From positions 1 through 14,502 of the forward strand of contig LJNI01000044.1 in NCBI GenBank assembly GCA_001303225.1: a DNA stretch of 14,502 nt, read 5' to 3'. The notes below the pieces were generated by a model. It worked only from the letters and a program-made list of their open reading frames with translations. It was not told the DNA's origin and ran no database searches. Made by a program: the position numbers and the translations under genes. Shown in pieces: positions 5,000-14,502 of the stretch. The DNA comes from a candidate division TA06 bacterium DG_78. GTDB taxonomy: Bacteria; Hydrothermota; Tepidihabitantia; SM23-42. Each line of letters begins with the position of its first letter. Position 1 is the stretch's first letter.

Positions 5000-5027
5000 T
5001 TGACATGATATATTTCGTCTCTATACT
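5000..5027 (+). promoter_or_regulatory. Promoter of exported paralog A
   Basis: A perfect TTGACA (5000-5005), a 16-bp spacer and TATACT (5022-5027). The predicted start near 5034 leaves a short leader of about 16 bases containing the Shine-Dalgarno. Unlike paralog B, this promoter has a canonical -35 box, so it need not depend on the BTAD regulator. Confidence 0.65.
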
Positions 5028-5049: not shown

Positions 5050-6447
5050 ATGAAAAAGTTGTTTCTTATATTCGGTATCGCGATGTGCCTCATGGCAAGC
5101 ACTAAAATCGTAGAACCACCGAGCCGGCCAGAACAGCTAAAGGTTCACAATATCAATCAGGTTGAGATGACAATATCTAACTACGGCGTCTTCGGCCAAA
5201 ATCTTTCGGGTTCTGGTTGCTGGTGGCCTATTGGTAGCGGAGAGGCTTACATCTTTGGTGCTGGTCTCTGGTTTGGAACTATTGACAATGGTGATACGCT
5301 CGTGACAAACAGTTATATTCCTAACAATGGCGCGCATGAAACTGAACCTGGTCTGTCCGGTACGAACTACAATGACTCCTATAATGTGATTTATATGTAT
5401 GGAGACAACTGGCCTGCACCTGTGGACACCTTTCCCATGGCACCACAAGACCATGTCTCACACCAGGACTCATGGTGTTGCTTCAATGATTCTCTTCCGT
5501 GGTTTCATGATACTGAGCCGATCGGCTTAGAGTTCTATCAAACGGTCTATGTCTGGAATGTATCTGAGATAGAGGATATTGTATTCTTTACTCATGAGGT
5601 AAAGAATGTCACTGACCATACCCTCCAAGATTGCTATATTGCTGTAGTAACCGATTGTGATGTCGGAGATGAAGCAGCCGCTCCTAATGACAGAAATTCT
5701 GGCGTAGTGGCGAGATGGTATGTGATTGATAGCGAGTCGATATTTGTCGATAATCTCGGCTATCAATGGCAAGAAGACCCAGAAGCTGGCTGGGCAGAAT
5801 TCCCAGGTGTTATCGGGTTCGACTTACTCGAAACACCAAACGATATTGGCATGAGCGCATTCAAGAGGTTTACCCTCAGCATTGAACCACTCACTGACCC
5901 TGACCGTTATGAGACGCTCGCTGGTTATGATTTCATGACCGGTCTGTATGAACCTTACGATACATTCCCATCTGATCCTACTGACCAGCGATTCTTGATG
6001 TCGAGTGGTCCATTCGACCTCGAGCCTGATCAGGGTGCAACACTTATATTTGCCGTACTCTTAGCCAGATGGGAAGGCATTTACCAGACACCTGATAGTG
6101 CCTTAGTTCTCGTTGACAAGTGGGCACAATACCAATACGACAGTGGCTGGCAGTTGTCGGTTGGAGAAAACTCATCCCCAGATATTATTAAAACAAGTGT
6201 AGCATTGAGTCCAAATCCATGTGCAGGAAATACGAAAATCTCTTTTTCTCTTGTAAAGTCTGGTGTGGTGTCTCTCAAACTATATAATACTGTTGGCCAG
6301 CTCGTACACAAACTTGTGCAGAGTAATATGAGTGCAGGTGCGTATACCTTCGACGTGGATGCCGGCGGGCTTGCACAAGGCACCTATTTCCTTATACTCG
6401 AAACACCCTATGGTACAGTATCTCGCTCGTTAGTAGTCCTGCGTTAA
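5050..6447 (+). CDS. Exported paralog A with type IX-style C-terminal sorting tail
   Basis: A 465-aa exported protein. The N-terminus is a signal peptide (MKKLFLIFGIAMCLMAS). The body shares a distinctive domain with paralogs B and C: KVHNINQVEM near residue 32, CWWP (C57), a GAGLWFGTID block, YPMAPQD-like and SHQDSWCC (C143, C144), GLEFYQTVY, DCY (C195), TDCD (C203), YQWQ and FKRFTL. Residues 384-465 form a beta-sandwich tail with SPNPC at its start and VGQLV, GLAQGTYFL and a final VVLR, the pattern of the type IX secretion (Por secretion system) C-terminal domain, which in known systems is cleaved as the protein is anchored or released. It lacks the Asp-rich insert of about 50 residues present in B and C; the junction falls at residues 266/267. 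Its role is unknown, and a structural or adhesive surface protein is as likely as an enzyme. No secretion-machinery genes are in the window. Confidence 0.85.
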   Translation: MKKLFLIFGIAMCLMASTKIVEPPSRPEQLKVHNINQVEMTISNYGVFGQNLSGSGCWWPIGSGEAYIFGAGLWFGTIDNGDTLVTNSYIPNNGAHETEPGLSGTNYNDSYNVIYMYGDNWPAPVDTFPMAPQDHVSHQDSWCCFNDSLPWFHDTEPIGLEFYQTVYVWNVSEIEDIVFFTHEVKNVTDHTLQDCYIAVVTDCDVGDEAAAPNDRNSGVVARWYVIDSESIFVDNLGYQWQEDPEAGWAEFPGVIGFDLLETPNDIGMSAFKRFTLSIEPLTDPDRYETLAGYDFMTGLYEPYDTFPSDPTDQRFLMSSGPFDLEPDQGATLIFAVLLARWEGIYQTPDSALVLVDKWAQYQYDSGWQLSVGENSSPDIIKTSVALSPNPCAGNTKISFSLVKSGVVSLKLYNTVGQLVHKLVQSNMSAGAYTFDVDAGGLAQGTYFLILETPYGTVSRSLVVLR

Positions 6448-6474: not shown

Positions 6475-6509
6475 AAGAGCTCATCCTCAGTAACCGAGGA
6501 TGAGCTCTT
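6475..6509 (+). terminator. 14-bp perfect hairpin after paralog A
   Basis: Arms at 6475-6488 and 6496-6509 (AAGAGCTCATCCTC and its exact complement) enclose a seven-base loop 27 bases after the paralog A stop. The stem is strong, but only a mixed TTACTGTTATAT follows instead of a U-run. It is therefore terminator-like and may act as a factor-dependent terminator or mRNA stabiliser. A further palindrome, AGAGCTCT at 6524-6531, repeats the core of the stem and could pair with either arm. Confidence 0.6.
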
Positions 6510-6553: not shown

Positions 6554-6579
6554 AGATTTCTGGTCTTTTTCAGAAATCT
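6554..6579 (+). promoter_or_regulatory. 9-bp inverted repeat upstream of the regulator promoter (candidate operator)
   Basis: AGATTTCTG (6554-6562) and CAGAAATCT (6571-6579) form a perfect inverted repeat with an eight-base T-rich centre, ending 12 bases before the TTGACA of the regulator gene. The 8-mer AGATTTCT recurs at 9933-9940 in the promoter of paralog B. It could be an operator or the stem of a second weak hairpin with terminator function, since the loop contains five T. Confidence 0.4.
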
Positions 6580-6591
6580 CACGGTAATAAC

Positions 6592-6619
6592 TTGACATAT
6601 ATTTTTATTTAGGTATTAT
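6592..6619 (+). promoter_or_regulatory. Promoter of the BTAD regulator, predicted leaderless
   Basis: A perfect TTGACA (6592-6597), a 16-bp spacer and TATTAT (6614-6619). The expected transcription start is 6626, the A of the ATG itself. No Shine-Dalgarno precedes the start. An AGGAG at 6634-6638 lies inside the reading frame, but no ATG, GTG or TTG in frame follows it at a useful distance. Confidence 0.65.
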
Positions 6620-6625
6620 TCTTGA

Positions 6626-9600
6626 ATGGTATCAGGAGAACATAATCTAATTATTCTCAGTAAACTCCAAGCACCTCAGATAACAACGAAAACACTGCGC
6701 CGGATGCGGCTCATCGACTCGCTGCAAAAAAACTTAGGTAAAAAAGTTATCCTTTTGTGTGCCGGAGCTGGATATGGTAAAACAACACTCCTCTCACAAT
6801 TCTTGTTACGTAAAAAGATATCGTACGTATATTACCATTTAGAAAAGAGCGATGCCGAACCTGCAGTGTTCTTATCATATCTCATTACTGGGTTACGTAA
6901 AATGAAACCTGGATTTGGTAAGAAAACAGAACGGTTAAGTCGTTTCTTCAACTATCCTAAAAAATATCTTGAAGTAATCGCCGGCACGTTCATAAACGAG
7001 GCTATTGAGTGGTTGCAAAAGGATGTATACATCATCCTCGAAGATTATCATGAACTCACTCCATCTGACCAAATAGACAGGATACTCGATTACATGGTCA
7101 GACATCTTCCGCCCCAACTACACTTTATCATCACCTCACGAACAGTACCTATGGTTTTCTCTCCACTCATGAGAGCTCGTGATGAGATATTTGAAATTAA
7201 CAGTCACGAATTAAAATTCACCAAGAACGAAATTAAACATCTTTTCGCGAAAATATATGAGATGCCTTTAAAAAACCAAGAGGCTCAGTGGATTGAAGAA
7301 CATTCTGAGGGTTGGCCGACGAGTTTACGGCTCATGCTACAATCATCCGATTACCTCGAGGGAATCAAATCATCAGATTATGTGAGAAAAATTTTAGATA
7401 GCTATCATCGATCACAGGCAAATTTGTTCAACTACTTTGTACAGGAAATTTTCAGCAAGGAATCAAAAACAACCCAGCGTTTCTTATTAGACTGTTCAAT
7501 CCTCGAATGGCTAACAACCGAACTTTGTAATGCGGTAACCAGAAGGAAAGATTCTGAAACGATTCTATCTAATTTAACAACAAGGAATGCATTTTTATTC
7601 AATATACCCGGTGTAGGCTATAGATTCCATAATCTCTTCAAGAATTTTTTGCAGAGCAAATTTATCAATATCACGAGAAAGAAAAGAATATACCGTCGTG
7701 CCGGTACCTTTTATATCAAAGGGAAAAATTTGGAACACGCCCTGAGGTTTTTCTTGGCAGCAGAGGAGTTTAAAAAAGCAGCTTCACTCATTGAAAAAAT
7801 CGGGACTGGTCTGACCGAGCAAGGGAAGAATGCTATCCTCTGTTCGTACATTGAACAAATACCACAAGCAATACTGAATCAACGTCCAAAACTTCTCATG
7901 AATTATGTGCAGTCGCTCATTTATGTCGGCCGTGCTGATGAGGCGAGGATCCATTGCCTCAGGGCAGTGAAATTACTCCACAAGAGCAGAAAGAATCGTA
8001 CACAGTATGCTGACGCGCTCTATCGATTAGGAGGGATATATCTCAATGAGGTTAAATACATCGTTGCAAAAAAATGGCTTTTAAGAGCCTTGCGTGCCTG
8101 TCCCCAAAATTCGCACCTCACCCGTGCCTCTATTTTGAATTCGATCGGTTCTGCCGACAATGAGATTGGAGGCAGACATCTCCGTAAGGCAGTACAATAC
8201 TTTGAAGAGGCTCTGCAGATAGCCCAACGCAATAAATATAAAGAACTCGAAGCAAGTATTCTCAACAATTGGGCGTGGTGTGAATTGAAGTTGGGGAATT
8301 TGTATCAAGCATATTTAAAATATTCTAAGATGGTTATGCTTCTCCGAAAACACTATTCATTTGGTTGTGGTGCAGGATTCTATAATGCTTCTCAGGTAAG
8401 TTTACTACTAGGCCACAATGAAGAGGCACGGTCAATTCTCGACCTAGGCATCAAAACATGCAATGCGCATAGTGACATTTGGTCTATGGCACGACTCTGG
8501 CACGGCTATGCATTGCTCTACGAAGAACTCGGTGATATAGAAAAAGCCAAGCAATTTATTTCTAAATCGCTGGATGTATATGAAAAATTGAGCCTCGTTC
8601 GGTTAATTATAAACGCACTCAATGAGATGAGTAAGATGTATATTCTCACTGGTGAACTCAATTTCGCATGGCGAAATCTGTCTGCGGTGTGGTGGTTCAA
8701 AAAAAATAGAGATGATGCCGAAGCTATTCCAATACTTTTAACTGAGGCGAAATTGAAAATGGCACAGGGTAAATATAAAGAAGCCGAAGATATCCTCTCG
8801 AAGGAATTACAATTAGCACAGAAAAGTAAACAGATTTACGATTCATTTTTGATAACCATTGAATTGAGTAAAGTGTACCACAAGCAAGGAGAAATAAAGA
8901 AAACATCGGCTGTATTGAAAGAAGCAATCGTGACGAGTAAAACCAAAGAATATAATTATCTGCTTCTCAAAGAATTACAAAAAGAACAGTGGATGTTGCC
9001 GATGATAAAAAAAGAAAATATTGAAAAAAACTACGTTGTGTCACTCGTCAAAAAATCGCACATCGATATTCACTGGATCGGTGCCTGCCTCTTCGGTGTT
9101 CCAAAAGTTAGCATCGACGGTCATGCAATTGCTGAAAGTGTCTGGAAAACAGCTAACGCAAAGAAACTTTTCTTTTATCTCTTATTGCAGAAGCAAGAAA
9201 ATGTCAGTCAGGACTCTATAATGAGAGCTTTTTGGCCTCATGCATCTCATAAAACTGGCTGTGCTAATCTTCGTAAGACAATACAGTATATTAGAGAAAC
9301 CATAAAATCACAGGTGGTTACTAGCAGTGATATAATTGTATCTCATAAAGGTATGTATCAATTAGCTTCGCATTTTTCGATAGAGCTAGATACCGATGAA
9401 TTTGAGAATGTAGTCAACCAAGCAAAAACGTTAAAGCCTCCTGATGAACGATCGAGAGTGTACTTACAAAAAGCAATTTCTCTCTACAAAGATGGTTTTG
9501 CTGTAGGATGGTATGACGAATGGATTGAGGACAATCGACGCTACTACGAAAATCTTTATGAAGACTGTTGTAATATGATGGCACGAATTTTCTTTGATAT

Positions 9601-9820
9601 AAAAAGATTTAAGCACGCAAGTGTTTGGTATAAGAAATTACTTTCACTAAATTTCTACAATGAAGAATATCATCGTCAATTGATGATGACATATGCTTAC
9701 TTAAAAAGATATCATGAAATAACAAGGCATTATGAAAACCTCAAAAAAATTCTCAAAGAAGAACTTAATACCGTACCTCAACAAGCAACTGTCCATCTCT
9801 ACTCAACACTTGTGAAATAA
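6626..9820 (+). CDS. STAND ATPase / TPR / BTAD-family transcriptional regulator (MalT- and SARP-like)
   Basis: A 1064-aa cytoplasmic regulator. The N-terminus is a MalT-type STAND ATPase: the run-in ILSKLQAP...LRRMRLI, Walker A AGAGYGKTT (46-54), Walker B IILEDYHEL (136-144), then IITSR and the RARDEIFEI...LKFT block typical of MalT-like proteins. The middle (about 350-800) is helical repeat sequence of TPR type, the usual place for inducer or partner sensing. From about 812 a winged-helix OmpR-like DNA-binding domain begins (CLFGVPKVSIDG, near 821-832) and leads into a BTAD helical domain (about 922-1060, DTDEFE onward to YENLKKILKEEL), as in SARP/AfsR-type activators. Here the DNA-binding part is C-terminal, whereas AfsR has it N-terminal. 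The gene lies between exported paralogs A and B, with a SARP-type repeat promoter directly downstream, so activation of paralog B is the likeliest job. The inducer is unknown. The ATG at 6626 is chosen from the leaderless promoter. Confidence 0.88.
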   Translation: MVSGEHNLIILSKLQAPQITTKTLRRMRLIDSLQKNLGKKVILLCAGAGYGKTTLLSQFLLRKKISYVYYHLEKSDAEPAVFLSYLITGLRKMKPGFGKKTERLSRFFNYPKKYLEVIAGTFINEAIEWLQKDVYIILEDYHELTPSDQIDRILDYMVRHLPPQLHFIITSRTVPMVFSPLMRARDEIFEINSHELKFTKNEIKHLFAKIYEMPLKNQEAQWIEEHSEGWPTSLRLMLQSSDYLEGIKSSDYVRKILDSYHRSQANLFNYFVQEIFSKESKTTQRFLLDCSILEWLTTELCNAVTRRKDSETILSNLTTRNAFLFNIPGVGYRFHNLFKNFLQSKFINITRKKRIYRRAGTFYIKGKNLEHALRFFLAAEEFKKAASLIEKIGTGLTEQGKNAILCSYIEQIPQAILNQRPKLLMNYVQSLIYVGRADEARIHCLRAVKLLHKSRKNRTQYADALYRLGGIYLNEVKYIVAKKWLLRALRACPQNSHLTRASILNSIGSADNEIGGRHLRKAVQYFEEALQIAQRNKYKELEASILNNWAWCELKLGNLYQAYLKYSKMVMLLRKHYSFGCGAGFYNASQVSLLLGHNEEARSILDLGIKTCNAHSDIWSMARLWHGYALLYEELGDIEKAKQFISKSLDVYEKLSLVRLIINALNEMSKMYILTGELNFAWRNLSAVWWFKKNRDDAEAIPILLTEAKLKMAQGKYKEAEDILSKELQLAQKSKQIYDSFLITIELSKVYHKQGEIKKTSAVLKEAIVTSKTKEYNYLLLKELQKEQWMLPMIKKENIEKNYVVSLVKKSHIDIHWIGACLFGVPKVSIDGHAIAESVWKTANAKKLFFYLLLQKQENVSQDSIMRAFWPHASHKTGCANLRKTIQYIRETIKSQVVTSSDIIVSHKGMYQLASHFSIELDTDEFENVVNQAKTLKPPDERSRVYLQKAISLYKDGFAVGWYDEWIEDNRRYYENLYEDCCNMMARIFFDIKRFKHASVWYKKLLSLNFYNEEYHRQLMMTYAYLKRYHEITRHYENLKKILKEELNTVPQQATVHLYSTLVK

Positions 9821-9917: not shown

Positions 9918-9959
9918 TCACAGTTTTATCACAGATTTCTCACACCTCAATACTATAAT
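9918..9959 (+). promoter_or_regulatory. SARP-type promoter: three 11-bp-spaced TCACA repeats and TATAAT
   Basis: Heptamers TCACAGT (9918-9924), TCACAGA (9929-9935) and TCACACC (9940-9946) recur at exactly 11 bp, one helical turn. Seven bases separate the last one from a perfect TATAAT (9954-9959). No -35 hexamer is present at 16-18 bp. Known SARP activators bind 11-bp-spaced direct repeats in the -35 region, the last about 8 bp before the -10, and recruit RNA polymerase. The gene just upstream encodes a BTAD regulator. Confidence 0.6.
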
Positions 9960-9978: not shown

Positions 9979-11523
9979 ATGGATAAGTATATAACGTTAT
10001 TGGGAATTGTGCTGTGTCTCAGTGCAGCAACTACGAGTAGCCTCGAGACCACCCATGGACGAGATATGAAAACACACAACATAAATCAAGTTGAATTACA
10101 AATTACAAACTATGGAACATGTGGACCGGCGTGGTGGCCTAAGGGAAGTGGTCATATGTATATTTATGGCGCAGGCTTTTGGTTTGGCACCATCGATCCT
10201 GTAACTGGTGATACACTCGTGACTATCGGTTATGGACCTCATGGTGGTGAATCAGAGTGTGTACCCGGCCTTCAAGGAATGCCTCTCGGGTCGATCATCT
10301 ATATGTACCCATCACCCTGGCCACCACCCGCCGACACCTATCCTATGGCACCGCAAGACCGTGTATCGCATCAAGATTCATGGTGTTGCTATAATGATTG
10401 TGATTCGAACCACCATATGCCTGGTGACACACGACCTATAGGCCTCGAGATATACCAAACCGGTTATGCGTGGAACGAACCAGGAATTGAAGATATCATT
10501 TTTCTAACCCTTGAGTTCAAAAATGTTTCAGAGCACAATCTTGAAAATTGTTATGTCGGTGTTTGTGCAGATTGTGACATTGGCAATGAGGCTGGTGGTT
10601 TTGCGAATGACATCTGTGGGCTTATATTAGATAAATCGTATTTTATTGGAGAGAATCTGTATATCATCGATGACCTCGCATACCAGTGGCAGGAAGTTGA
10701 AGAACCTGGTTGGCAAGAATCAGCAGGAGCAATTGGTTTTGACATCCTCCAAACACCATTTGATTTAGAAGAAGGTGAAGATAAAGATGGTGATGGTATT
10801 CCTGACCAGTATGAAAGGGATAGTGTGTATTACTGGAACAATGTTCCGCAACATAAGTGGGATGTTGATAGTGACGGCATACCAGACTGGCGCGATGCAT
10901 CTGAGAATCCGCAACTTGGTTTGACTGCATTCAAGCGTTTTACTTTAACTATCGAACCTAACAGAGATCCTGAACGCTATATGACACTTGCCGGTTATAA
11001 TTTCACGACTGGTGAGTATGAACCTTATGATACAATACCTTTGCCAGACCCTGATGACCAACGTTACCTCATGTCGACTGGACCATTCAACCTCGAGAAT
11101 GATTCCATCATGACCATTGTATGTGCAGTAGTCTTAGCTGAGTATGGTGAGAATGCTGTACCACAAGCAGAAACGTGTTTGGTTTTAACTGACCACAGAG
11201 CACAAGTACAATATAACATGAACTGGCTCTTATCAGTAGAAGAAATAATCTCAGACCAGACAGTGACGAATAACTTACTCTTCGGTCCTAACCCTGTTAT
11301 CAAGAGAGGGTTTATTACCTTTTCACTACAGCATGCAGGGAATGTTACTATTACATTGTACAATAGTGTGGGTCAGCTGGTAAAAGAAATTTATAATGAG
11401 AATACAGCAGCTGGTAGTCATAGTATACATTTTGATACATATGGTCTTGCTCAGGGGACCTACTTGTGTATACTTGAAACACCTGACAGTAGGTCATCCT
11501 GTTCTTTAGTAATACTTCGTTGA
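9979..11523 (+). CDS. Exported paralog B with Asp-rich calcium-type insert and type IX-style tail
   Basis: A 514-aa exported protein, paralogous to A along its whole length. The signal peptide is MDKYITLLGIVLCLSAATTSS. Shared landmarks are KTHNINQVEL, WWPKGSGH, GAGFWFGTID, WPPPADTYPMAPQD, SHQDSWCC (C136, C137), PIGLEIYQ, NCY, ADCD (C199), YQWQ and FKRFTL. The 49-residue length difference from A is explained by one insert (residues about 264-313) with two DxDxDGIPD loops (D268-D276 and D295-D303), like thrombospondin type 3/EF-hand-like calcium sites in extracellular proteins. Residues 433-514 are the sorting tail (GPNPV at its start, VGQLV, GLAQGTYLCIL, final VILR). It is probably activated by the upstream BTAD regulator. 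Enzymatic residues were not recognised and the function is unknown. Confidence 0.85.
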   Translation: MDKYITLLGIVLCLSAATTSSLETTHGRDMKTHNINQVELQITNYGTCGPAWWPKGSGHMYIYGAGFWFGTIDPVTGDTLVTIGYGPHGGESECVPGLQGMPLGSIIYMYPSPWPPPADTYPMAPQDRVSHQDSWCCYNDCDSNHHMPGDTRPIGLEIYQTGYAWNEPGIEDIIFLTLEFKNVSEHNLENCYVGVCADCDIGNEAGGFANDICGLILDKSYFIGENLYIIDDLAYQWQEVEEPGWQESAGAIGFDILQTPFDLEEGEDKDGDGIPDQYERDSVYYWNNVPQHKWDVDSDGIPDWRDASENPQLGLTAFKRFTLTIEPNRDPERYMTLAGYNFTTGEYEPYDTIPLPDPDDQRYLMSTGPFNLENDSIMTIVCAVVLAEYGENAVPQAETCLVLTDHRAQVQYNMNWLLSVEEIISDQTVTNNLLFGPNPVIKRGFITFSLQHAGNVTITLYNSVGQLVKEIYNENTAAGSHSIHFDTYGLAQGTYLCILETPDSRSSCSLVILR

Positions 11524-11635: not shown

Positions 11636-14502
11636 ATGAAGTACAGTGTTATAAATTCCACGAATGTTGTGATGATAAAGATTGTTGTTTTATTATTTAC
11701 AGTGATAGCTATGGCTTATAGCAAAACAGCATTCCCAGTCCAGGCAAGCCGTGGCTTTCAGACTAAGCTCCATAATGTAAACCAAGTAGAAATGACAGTC
11801 CACAATGATGGCCGATTTGCGCGCGGTACTTCCGGTAATGAGTGTTGGTGGCCAAAAGGGAGTGGTCACAATTATATCTTTGGTGCAGGAAATTGGTTTG
11901 GGACAATCGATGTAGCAACTGGAGATACACTGGCAACAATTGGGTACAATCCCAATGATGGTTCATCAGAATATACACCAGGATTGGTTGGCATGTCATT
12001 CAGTGACCCAAATGCGATTTTATTCTTTTATCCTACAGATTGGCCACCACCTGTATCAGTATATCCAATGGCACCACAAGACCCAACATCACATCAAGAT
12101 TCATGGTGTGCATATAATGATTTGAATGAAACGTATCATACGCCTGGTGACACTAGACCGATCGGCCTCGAAGTATATCAATCTGTCTATGCCTGGAACC
12201 TCTCATCGACCCAGGATATCATCTTTATGCGTGTTGAATTAAAGAATGTGAGTGGCGATACATTAAAGCAGTGCTATTTTAGTATTGGTGCAGATAATGA
12301 TATTGGTGCTGAAGGTGGTGATGCTAGGAATGATAGAATTGCTGGCATCCTGGGTAAGTGGTATGTCATTGATGGCGAATCACTCTGGGTAGATAATTTC
12401 GGCTACCAATGGCAAGATGTTCTTGAAGCTAATTGGGATGAATTCCCCGGCACTATTGGATATGATTTTCTCCAGAGCCCCTACGATTTAGTGCCAGGAC
12501 AGGATAAGGATAACGACGGCATTCCTGATGAGCATGAAACAGACAGTGCCTGGTTTGCACAACATCTTTCAGGAGATTCTCTGTATGATGCTGATATGGA
12601 CGGCACACCAGACTGGCGAGACCCTTCGCAGATTCCGCAGCTGGGCATGACTGCTCTCAAGAGGTTCACCCTAGCTACTGACCCAACTGTAGATCCTGAA
12701 CGGTATCTGATATTGGCTGGTTATAACTATAAGACCCTTGCCTATGAACCATATGATACCATACCATCAGACCCTGATGATTGGCGGTTCTATCAATGCA
12801 GTGGACCGTTTGAATTGCCCCCAGATTCCACGGCGATTGTCCTCGTCGGTATTGTCTTTGCTTATTGGCACGATACTTATGGAACACCAGATAGTGCACT
12901 CGCCGGGGTGGACAACACTGCCCAGTTCATCTATGATAAGAACTGGCTCTTACCAGGTCCACCACCGCCACCAACTCTGATGCTCATTCCCGGTGATACC
13001 AAGGTGACCTTGACTTGGAGTAGCGCACCTGAAACTGCAGCTGACCCCTACTACGATATTGTGAGCGATAGCGCTTTTGAATTACTCTATGATCCATACT
13101 ATCGTGAGTATGACTTCGAGGGCTACCGGATCTGGAGGAGTCTAACCGGACACACTGGTGATTGGCAGCTGATCACTTCCTACGATCTTTTTAATGATGT
13201 AATGTTTGAAGATACGACCGTCGCAGAATCGATCCGCATCAAGGCAGAGAACACTGGTATTACACACTACTACGTTGATGAAGGTCTGCGTAACGGCTTC
13301 ATGTACTACTACTCGGTCACCTCATTCGACTATAACTTTGTGAGAGAAATTGTTGACGGTGACACAATACCGTCTCCGCTCTGGTTCGAGAGTGGTTTGA
13401 GTGGTGAGGCAACATCACCTCGCCGTGATGCATGGAACTACGTTGGACCAGGTGAACCACAGTTTGAAGTCGTGAATGGTAATGAACGCCTTCTCGACCG
13501 AATTGATGCTCAAGTGGTTAATCCATGTGCTGTAGATCCGAATCGGCCAACCTACTTAGAATTCAGTGCACCTGAGACATTGACAATTACTGTTACTGAT
13601 ACGACCGACACTTCCATTGTAGTGTATAATACTAACGGTGTAAAATACACCGTATATGTTAAAGATGCTGATGATAATATTGTAATGACGAAAGTCACCA
13701 AAAATAGAATTGGTAGGAGTCTCCATCTTGATGACTTTGCACCGGTTGATGGTATCTTGACATTGCTCTATAATGGGACTGATTCATTTCCGAATCCATG
13801 CTTGGTGTTTGACACGGTTGAGGTAGGAGGCAGTTATCCGGATACCCTGGTAGGTACGGTGAAGACGCATATCCCGTCGGATAAAGCATACTACTGCTTT
13901 GGTTTTTGGGCGCATCGTGGCAATGACTATCAGGTGATCTGGAAGAAGAAGGATCCTGGTGGTGTGGTGAATACGGTTGTGGTGATTGATGAGGAGACCG
14001 GTGATACGATTCCGTATCAGCCGTATCAGAATACGATGGCGATGCGGCACCTCGGTGAGGGTTGGTGTTTTACCAAGACGGTGGATTTTTTGACCGAGTG
14101 GGCGACACCAGTGAGTGATACCTTGGTGACGACCGGTTCACCGGGGAATCGGACCAAGTCACTGTACATCAATGGTGGTTTGGTGACCTTGCGGGACGAC
14201 AAGTATATGGTGGATTCGATTCTTCCTGGTGAGAATGATGTTTGGATCGTGCGGGCGAATCGGGAATATATGGCGGCGCCAGTGTATGCTCGTGTTGGAG
14301 TGAGTGCAACACCGGGTTATTTTAATAATACGACGCAACTTACGCTCAATGTCAAGGTGGTGCCGAATCCGTATCTTGTGCAGAACGAGTGGCAGATATC
14401 GCCACAGCTACGTCGGTTAAAGTTCATCAATTTGCCGAACCAGTGTACGATTCGGATATTCAATCTTAATGGTGAGTTAGTGAAGACGCTTGTGCATTCA
14501 GA
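11636..14502 (+). CDS. Large exported paralog C, C-terminus beyond the window
   Basis: The frame opens at ATG 11636 and stays open for 955 codons to the window end, so the C-terminus is missing. An N-terminal hydrophobic stretch (MIKIVVLLFTVIAMAYS, residues 13-29) serves as signal peptide. Residues about 45-435 repeat the A/B domain: KLHNVNQVEM, CWWPKGSGH, GAGNWFGTID, WPPPVSVYPMAPQD, SHQDSWCA (C158 A159), PIGLEVYQSVY, QCY, ADND (N221) and YQWQ. The Asp-rich insert (286-336) has DxDxDGIPD (D290-D298) and a DxDxDGTPD (D318-D326). A proline run at 441-446 then introduces a fibronectin-like segment (TKVTLTWSS, EGYRIWRS, YYYSVTSFD) not found in A or B. The last residues (VVPNPYLVQNEW, FINLP, IRIFNLNGELVKTL) are the start of a FlgD/type IX-style tail. 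Codon choice changes clearly toward ACG/ACC, CCG and GTG in the last 700 bases. The role is unknown; a large surface or secreted protein is likely. Confidence 0.82.
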   Translation, partial: MKYSVINSTNVVMIKIVVLLFTVIAMAYSKTAFPVQASRGFQTKLHNVNQVEMTVHNDGRFARGTSGNECWWPKGSGHNYIFGAGNWFGTIDVATGDTLATIGYNPNDGSSEYTPGLVGMSFSDPNAILFFYPTDWPPPVSVYPMAPQDPTSHQDSWCAYNDLNETYHTPGDTRPIGLEVYQSVYAWNLSSTQDIIFMRVELKNVSGDTLKQCYFSIGADNDIGAEGGDARNDRIAGILGKWYVIDGESLWVDNFGYQWQDVLEANWDEFPGTIGYDFLQSPYDLVPGQDKDNDGIPDEHETDSAWFAQHLSGDSLYDADMDGTPDWRDPSQIPQLGMTALKRFTLATDPTVDPERYLILAGYNYKTLAYEPYDTIPSDPDDWRFYQCSGPFELPPDSTAIVLVGIVFAYWHDTYGTPDSALAGVDNTAQFIYDKNWLLPGPPPPPTLMLIPGDTKVTLTWSSAPETAADPYYDIVSDSAFELLYDPYYREYDFEGYRIWRSLTGHTGDWQLITSYDLFNDVMFEDTTVAESIRIKAENTGITHYYVDEGLRNGFMYYYSVTSFDYNFVREIVDGDTIPSPLWFESGLSGEATSPRRDAWNYVGPGEPQFEVVNGNERLLDRIDAQVVNPCAVDPNRPTYLEFSAPETLTITVTDTTDTSIVVYNTNGVKYTVYVKDADDNIVMTKVTKNRIGRSLHLDDFAPVDGILTLLYNGTDSFPNPCLVFDTVEVGGSYPDTLVGTVKTHIPSDKAYYCFGFWAHRGNDYQVIWKKKDPGGVVNTVVVIDEETGDTIPYQPYQNTMAMRHLGEGWCFTKTVDFLTEWATPVSDTLVTTGSPGNRTKSLYINGGLVTLRDDKYMVDSILPGENDVWIVRANREYMAAPVYARVGVSATPGYFNNTTQLTLNVKVVPNPYLVQNEWQISPQLRRLKFINLPNQCTIRIFNLNGELVKTLVHS

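Follow-up and report, generated by a model that had tools for sequence, protein, structure and literature searches.

The element at positions 9918 to 9959 of the window, the whole analyzed stretch of 14,502 nucleotides, is very probably an activator-dependent promoter of AfsR/SARP geometry, at which the 1064-aa regulator encoded upstream would bind direct repeats and activate the gene of the exported paralog B. On the forward strand, the pentamer TCACA lies at 9918 to 9922, 9929 to 9933 and 9940 to 9944 (repeat units TCTCACA, TATCACA and TCTCACA), its starts at 9918, 9929 and 9940 giving an exact 11-bp period, and the forward-strand -10 hexamer TATAAT (9954 to 9959) begins after a further 9 bp. 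Counted as heptamers that open with TCACA, the third repeat ends at 9946 and seven bases separate it from TATAAT, while the best TTGACA match 16 to 18 bp before this hexamer agrees at two of six positions; the coordinates thus bear out the three heptamers spaced by 11 bp and the missing -35 box given in the preliminary description. The exact TCACA triple occurs once in the organism's own genome (2.09 Mb, 80% complete), and its backward control is absent. The general repeat unit is TTTCACA, of which the window carries the variant T(C/A)TCACA, and the window has three repeat copies where most other sites have two.

The regulator gene (6626 to 9820, forward strand) encodes an N-terminal MalT/STAND-type NTPase, a MalT-like TPR region and, at about residues 838 to 1061 of 1064, an OmpR-type winged helix followed by BTAD, the succession found in SARP/AfsR-type proteins; no SARP domain was found at the N-terminus of the window regulator, the wHTH-BTAD unit being C-terminal. 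The Trans_reg_C-like winged-helix DNA-binding domain (9137 to 9352, forward strand, recognition helix KTGCANLRKTIQYIR) scores 19.7 bits in the window regulator, under the cut-off of 26.2, and the BTAD domain (PF03704, 9386 to 9808, forward strand) scores 51.7 bits, above its cut-off; among the relatives, Trans_reg_C is matched at E ≤ 1 in 25 of 26 and BTAD in 23 of 26. The TPR region passes the Pfam cut-off, and the NTPase call is based on a conserved Walker A motif, GAGYGKTT, at the N-terminus, the Pfam NTPase matches being below their cut-offs. A C-terminal LuxR helix-turn-helix is the defining trait of MalT/LAL activators, with which the regulator shares the MalT-like TPR region and the N-terminal Walker A motif; in the window regulator the LuxR domain has no Pfam match at E ≤ 0.001 and is replaced by wHTH-BTAD. 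When a profile of 26 C-terminal regions was compared with solved structures, AfsR was the top match (8hvr, E = 7.9e-7), followed by TPR proteins, EmbR and further wHTH proteins. The best reading of the regulator is a MalT-like sensor in which the LuxR domain has been swapped for an AfsR-type wHTH-BTAD unit.

Most of what is known about SARP-type activation comes from antibiotic clusters of Streptomyces. An actinomycete host and an antibiotic gene cluster, usual though not strictly defining SARP traits, are not found here: in an alignment search with 18 regulators, the best 20 of 27 loci were named Candidatus Stahlbacteria or candidate division WOR-3, which confirms the non-actinomycete lineage proposed earlier. 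The open-access literature yielded no paper on such regulators in WOR-3 nor on a TCACA word with SARPs, and the words transcription, regulator, promoter and SARP are absent from the main text of a WOR-3 genome survey (PMC12542636).

To the regulator gene itself we assign, by eye, a promoter with TTGACA at 6592 to 6597 and TATTAT at 6614 to 6619 and no repeat promoter; a single TCTCACG half-site lies at 6577 to 6583, just before this -35. Because the promoter stops 6 bp short of the ATG (6592 to 6626), the regulator mRNA may be leaderless, and similarly close promoter-ATG spacing is seen before several regulator relatives.

Conservation of the repeats was assessed by listing regulators by protein similarity and then reading the DNA after their stop codons. 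From 29 clade-I genes, the 27 with at least 45 nt downstream were evaluated (G002:C113 and G025:C45 were left out because the contig ends at once; clade-I pieces in G012, G014 and G024 are outside the 29 examined downstream). TCAC-N7-TCAC was present in 24 of these 27 regions 3′ of the regulator ORFs, whereas mononucleotide shuffles averaged 0.095 and never exceeded 2; in other parts of these loci, 149 of 18,258 350-bp windows contained it. The 27 regions are not independent, paralogs and near relatives being included. Pairs of TCAC in the clade-I regions are spaced by 11 bp in 27 cases, by 12 bp in three, by 22 bp in three and otherwise in five. TANNNT follows the last TCACN after 9 bp in 22 of 26 sites, with at most six at any other gap, and the TTGACA match 16 to 18 bp before the hexamer reaches at most two of six positions in all 27 clade-I sites; in G010 the regulator is present and the hexamer at the fixed gap is poor (CGATAT). 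In the related genomes, direct repeats at 11 bp and a -10 at a preferred gap stand where a SARP/AfsR-type promoter has them, in place of a -35 box. With the repeats adjoining it so regularly and AfsR as the top structural match, the adjacent BTAD regulator is, as first suggested, the likely activator.

Among the regions lacking the pair, those of G003 and G018 are not evaluable, the gene meeting a 100-N gap before its end, and G026:C128 is genuinely without it, having a single half-site and no second repeat. In six of seven relatives from outside WOR-3 (L257 to L263 without L261), read by eye, no box follows the gene. A second G003 piece begins directly after a 100-N gap. Four single-contig WOR-3 'chromosomes' (L081, L086, L104 and L105, from G003, G004, G018 and G005, respectively) look like joined contigs because of their 100-N runs, and gene ends at the joints mislead; a supposed loss of the regulator C-terminus together with the boxes in G018 was dropped, as a 100-N gap ends the gene there.

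Families f1 and f2 of the WOR-3 order, where clade-I regulators were seen, comprise 27 genomes with 124 genome-wide matches to the box pattern TCAC-N7-TCAC-N10-TANNNT and 12 to its reversal; the 34 other genomes compared have 14 and 7, respectively. A matched set of 27 genomes (21 from f1 or f2 and six others) yielded 102 matches with the true spacing, 11 with period 10, 32 with period 12, 40 with a gap one base shorter and 18 with a gap one base longer; since several gap-8 sites look genuine, the 9-bp gap is preferred and not absolute. The 'strong' boxes, an ad hoc class defined after looking at the sites, comprise 92 of the 124 (one regulator-adjacent site, in G003, is outside the class), and the profile of 91 of them reads TTTCACANATTTTTCACA-N9-TATAAT; the pattern and the filter for strong boxes dictate its TCAC words, TA and the final T in the -10, and some of the T-rich spacer. 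Strong boxes were found in 18 of 19 genomes with a clade-I wHTH and in two of eight without (Fisher 6e-4, kinship uncorrected), the eight including G012, G014 and G018, in which a contig end or gap truncates the gene; without these three, one of five genomes lacking the clade-I wHTH has strong boxes. The exceptions to the pairing are G010, which has no strong box, G007, which has four and no detected regulator (66% complete), and G014, where the contig stops within the gene and leaves a fragment. The regulator gene is itself preceded by a box, at a distance of 86 nt, in three g2 genomes, which hints at autoregulation in some species. An 11-bp repeat, TCACAAAT(T/C)GGTCACAAA, occurs unexplained in three places in G047, a genome of another family in which the protein-similarity listing found no regulator.

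In the window, the repeat promoter sits directly before paralog B (9979 to 11523, forward strand, start codon at 9979), a protein of 514 aa with a T9SS-type C-terminal sorting domain and the predicted target. Paralog C (11636 to 14502, same strand) begins 112 bp after B and runs off the window, and perhaps is co-transcribed with B. Paralog A (5050 to 6447, forward strand) has no box and a sigma-70-like promoter, read by eye as TTGACA at 5000 to 5005 and TATACT at 5022 to 5027, so that among the promoters of A, the regulator gene and B, the repeat promoter is found at B only; Por_Secre_tail was found in both A and B in a Pfam scan that covered these two. An inverted repeat without a T run, aagagctcatcctc / gaggatgagctctt, read by eye at 6475 to 6509 after paralog A, is a possible terminator.

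Across the order, an ORF that encodes 100 aa or more and starts no further than 200 nt away follows 70 of the 92 strong sites, leaving 22 without one, and nine of 32 weak sites. By a crude rule, a signal-peptide-like start is present in 61 of 67 downstream ORFs (the 70 less three regulator ORFs) versus 173 of 492 control ORFs from the same loci, the controls being at least 150 aa against at least 100 aa for the targets, including neighbors of box genes and possibly holding false ORFs and repeats from overlapping loci. Among the best 25 of 89 Pfam families in 63 targets (L086, L164, L213 and L222, with unread X runs, were also left out), Por_Secre_tail was matched in 19, carboxypeptidase-regulatory domains in seven, FlgD_ig in seven, TonB receptor barrels in five and Peptidase_C25 in four; 63 control ORFs gave six for Por_Secre_tail and six for FlgD_ig, the latter hardly differing from the targets. 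SprA of the T9SS translocon was found in eight of eight genomes tested, above the cut-off in seven. Because of these export counts, Pfam families and SprA, the box appears to mark mainly genes of secreted and outer-membrane proteins, type IX secretion cargo among them. Paralog B accordingly stays a predicted target of the regulator, while the notion that it is the only one falls, given that many exported genes across the order have the box.

Regulators of other clades, mostly 25 to 32% identical, adjoin other words. In a word-free test, which asks for an exact 6-mer repeated at period p and then TANNNT, period 11 was scored in 17 of 26 clade-I and nine of 22 other-clade regions, period 12 in no clade-I and three other-clade regions, and each other period from 7 to 21 in zero to two, with shuffles and genomic windows averaging below 0.5; as 10 of the 22 other-clade regions have no match at period 11 or 12, the rule is not universal. 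The other-clade words, found partly by script and partly by eye, include TGTGAG, TGTAACA, TTGTTATG, ACTGTAATG and TTGTTGTG, as well as TGTCAACA at period 12 and, by eye, TTGAC in three copies beside the G010:C36 regulator. Recognition helices differ in step with the words, LRKAxQHIR going with TTTCACA and LHVEISALR with TGTGAG. The TGTGAG pattern gave 35 matches versus 3 reversed in f1 and f2 and 2 versus 0 in the other 34 genomes; 32 of the 35 fall in eight genomes where that clade was seen (G003, G004, G016, G018 to G021 and G025), and of the remaining three, the one at G002:C138 is a TTTCACA box read on the opposite strand. TTTCACA boxes without any of TGTGAG occur in G005 and G014, G019 shows the reverse, and 15 of 20 TGTGAG loci read have an exported-looking first ORF. 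In this distribution the two words, TTTCACA and TGTGAG, track two regulator clades across genomes.

The closest known system is AfsR/afsS of Streptomyces coelicolor. In the parts of the published account covered here, SARP repeats have a spacing of 11 or 22 bp and the 3′ one stands 8 bp from the -10, the afs box is centered at -29.5 with its upstream repeat at -40 to -30, the afsS promoter has a poor -35, TTCAGC, at -38 to -33, and AfsR contacts T-38 through R92 and the G opposite -36 through T88 (PMC10936776); the AfsR repeat is given in the covered part of a review as CGTT(T/C)ATCGNN (PMC10972967). Assuming a conventional -10 start at -12, TTCAGC stands 20 bp before the -10, as does the first word of TTCACA-N5-TTCACA-N9-TATAAT, and the box register fits the published promoter. 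As far as these parts of the accounts go, AfsR, a large SARP, likewise joins an OmpR-type wHTH and BTAD to extra NTPase and TPR parts, and its promoter likewise has two 11-bp direct repeats with a TTCA core, a poor -35 and a set distance to the -10. The SARP-like architecture first proposed is thereby corroborated by the repeats, the preferred -10 gap, the missing -35 and the structural match; the accompanying claim of a new word is correct with respect to TCGAG of ActII-ORF4 but not with respect to AfsR, which also reads TTCA, in the same register, so that TCACA is not wholly new. In AfsR, however, wHTH-BTAD is N-terminal, and because the domain order is reversed here, signal gating may differ. 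Read from the profile-structure alignment, T88 of AfsR is replaced by K and R92 by H or Y; unlike AfsR, the regulators described here belong to WOR-3, have many paralogs, several beside their own word, and would act mainly on exported proteins. The variable base before TCAC (T, A or C) is position -38, the R92 contact. This base is T in 28 of 28 repeats of rows with His, in 13 of 25 with Tyr and in two of two of the one Asn row, non-T occurring only in Tyr rows (12 of 25; Fisher for His versus Tyr rows, 2e-5); on a tree, three independent pairs on well-supported branches gave a non-significant sign test, so the covariation of helix and base is a lead only.

Other systems share parts of this layout. 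PimR-type SARP-LAL proteins fuse a SARP DNA-binding part to a LAL-like part and, as given in the portion of PMC5930380 covered, bind three heptamers with 4-bp spacers, as here, but with the word CGGCAAG and a main operator that does not overlap the -35, and their SARP part is N-terminal according to the covered portion of PMC3367932. Thermus DnrS is, in the covered text of PMC5748679, a BTAD activator outside the actinomycetes with a C-terminal BTAD, as here, and, unlike here, a GAF sensor; 'direct repeat' is absent from the main text of that paper. The window promoter would work like a SARP/AfsR promoter, as a family member differing in domain order, lineage and targets.

OmpR/PhoB-type response regulators, the main rival binders, likewise bind direct repeats of 11-bp period that stand where a -35 would be; the Bacillus Pho box is TT(A/C)ACA. 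The repeats could then be a Pho-box-like operator bound by similar OmpR-type wings, with the neighboring BTAD gene incidental, and stand-alone Trans_reg_C proteins of 231 and 242 aa do exist in box-bearing G005. We regard this as very unlikely, since in a PF00486 search of eight genomes, box-bearing G000, G004, G020 and G021 (80-97% complete bins) had no match of response-regulator size, only matches inside frames of 760 to 1107 aa, an absence that is not absolute because the bins are incomplete; a response regulator was thus not found in every box-bearing genome, as a PhoB/OmpR regulon would have it. Furthermore, G019 has a 236-aa PF00486 match and no strong box, the box directly follows the BTAD gene in nearly all clade-I regions, and other BTAD clades adjoin other words. 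It is unlikely, too, that the regulator binds but mainly represses or autoregulates while promoter opening depends on another factor: binding is compatible with either sign, and the box before the regulator gene in the three g2 genomes would suit such a role, yet the missing -35 and the predominant 9-bp gap fit an activator substituting for the -35 contact, and AfsR, with this geometry, is an activator.

TCACA is also the half-site of the CRP site, TGTGA-N6-TCACA. Despite the matching pentamer, a CRP-type operator is exceedingly improbable, as the copies are all in direct orientation, none of those in the window has a TGTGA arm 6 bp upstream, and TTTCACA belongs with one regulator clade and set of genomes and TGTGAG with another; the inverted arrangement was not found. 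Short AT-rich words are common, and 11 of the 124 genome-wide matches lie inside ORFs, but a chance or non-regulatory repeat is hardly credible in view of the shuffled regions, an excess of 10-fold over the reversed pattern and of 2.6- to 9-fold over one-base shifts of the pattern, the single preferred -10 gap, and the peak of the word-free test at period 11.

We therefore retain direct activation of B by the adjacent regulator as the preferred reading. From the repeats, their preferred spacing, the missing -35, the conservation with the regulator and the regulator-word association, all obtained from sequence, we infer repeat binding, activation, sigma contact and signal gating along the following lines. 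The C-terminal wHTH-BTAD units would bind next to one another on the repeats, with a protomer for each 11-bp turn, and occupy the space where a -35 box would be; the bound regulator would help sigma-70 RNA polymerase open at TATAAT, which would switch on paralog B and perhaps C, and the MalT-built NTPase-TPR part would probably gate activation by some signal and ATP. The regulator probably controls a secretome regulon beyond the adjacent promoter. The proposal places SARP promoter geometry in an uncultured lineage, tied to type IX secretion cargo and outer-membrane proteins, and offers a handle on gene regulation in WOR-3.

More broadly, we somewhat favor the view that WOR-3 harbors an expanded family of MalT-chassis wHTH-BTAD activators that share one promoter layout (repeats at 11, sometimes 12 bp, about 9 bp to the -10, no -35), with an own word per clade (TTTCACA, TGTGAG, TGTAACA, TTGACA, TTGTTATG, ACTGTAATG and others). 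Since clades differ in word but share the layout, sequence lets regulators be matched to their operators, and the matched pairs constitute a data set for base choice by OmpR/SARP helices and candidate insulated activator-promoter parts. If the expanded-family view is true, the pairs would be naturally insulated and control secretome blocks, and the base code of SARP recognition helices would be directly readable. The word ATCAC(T/C)GTAATC stands beside three other BTAD regulators of the organism's own genome (L092, L095 and L096). The BTAD regulator G000:C92 (L094) has an in-frame TGA, which may reflect decay or misassembly of this copy; downstream of it, TTGTTGTG is still repeated ahead of TATAAT.
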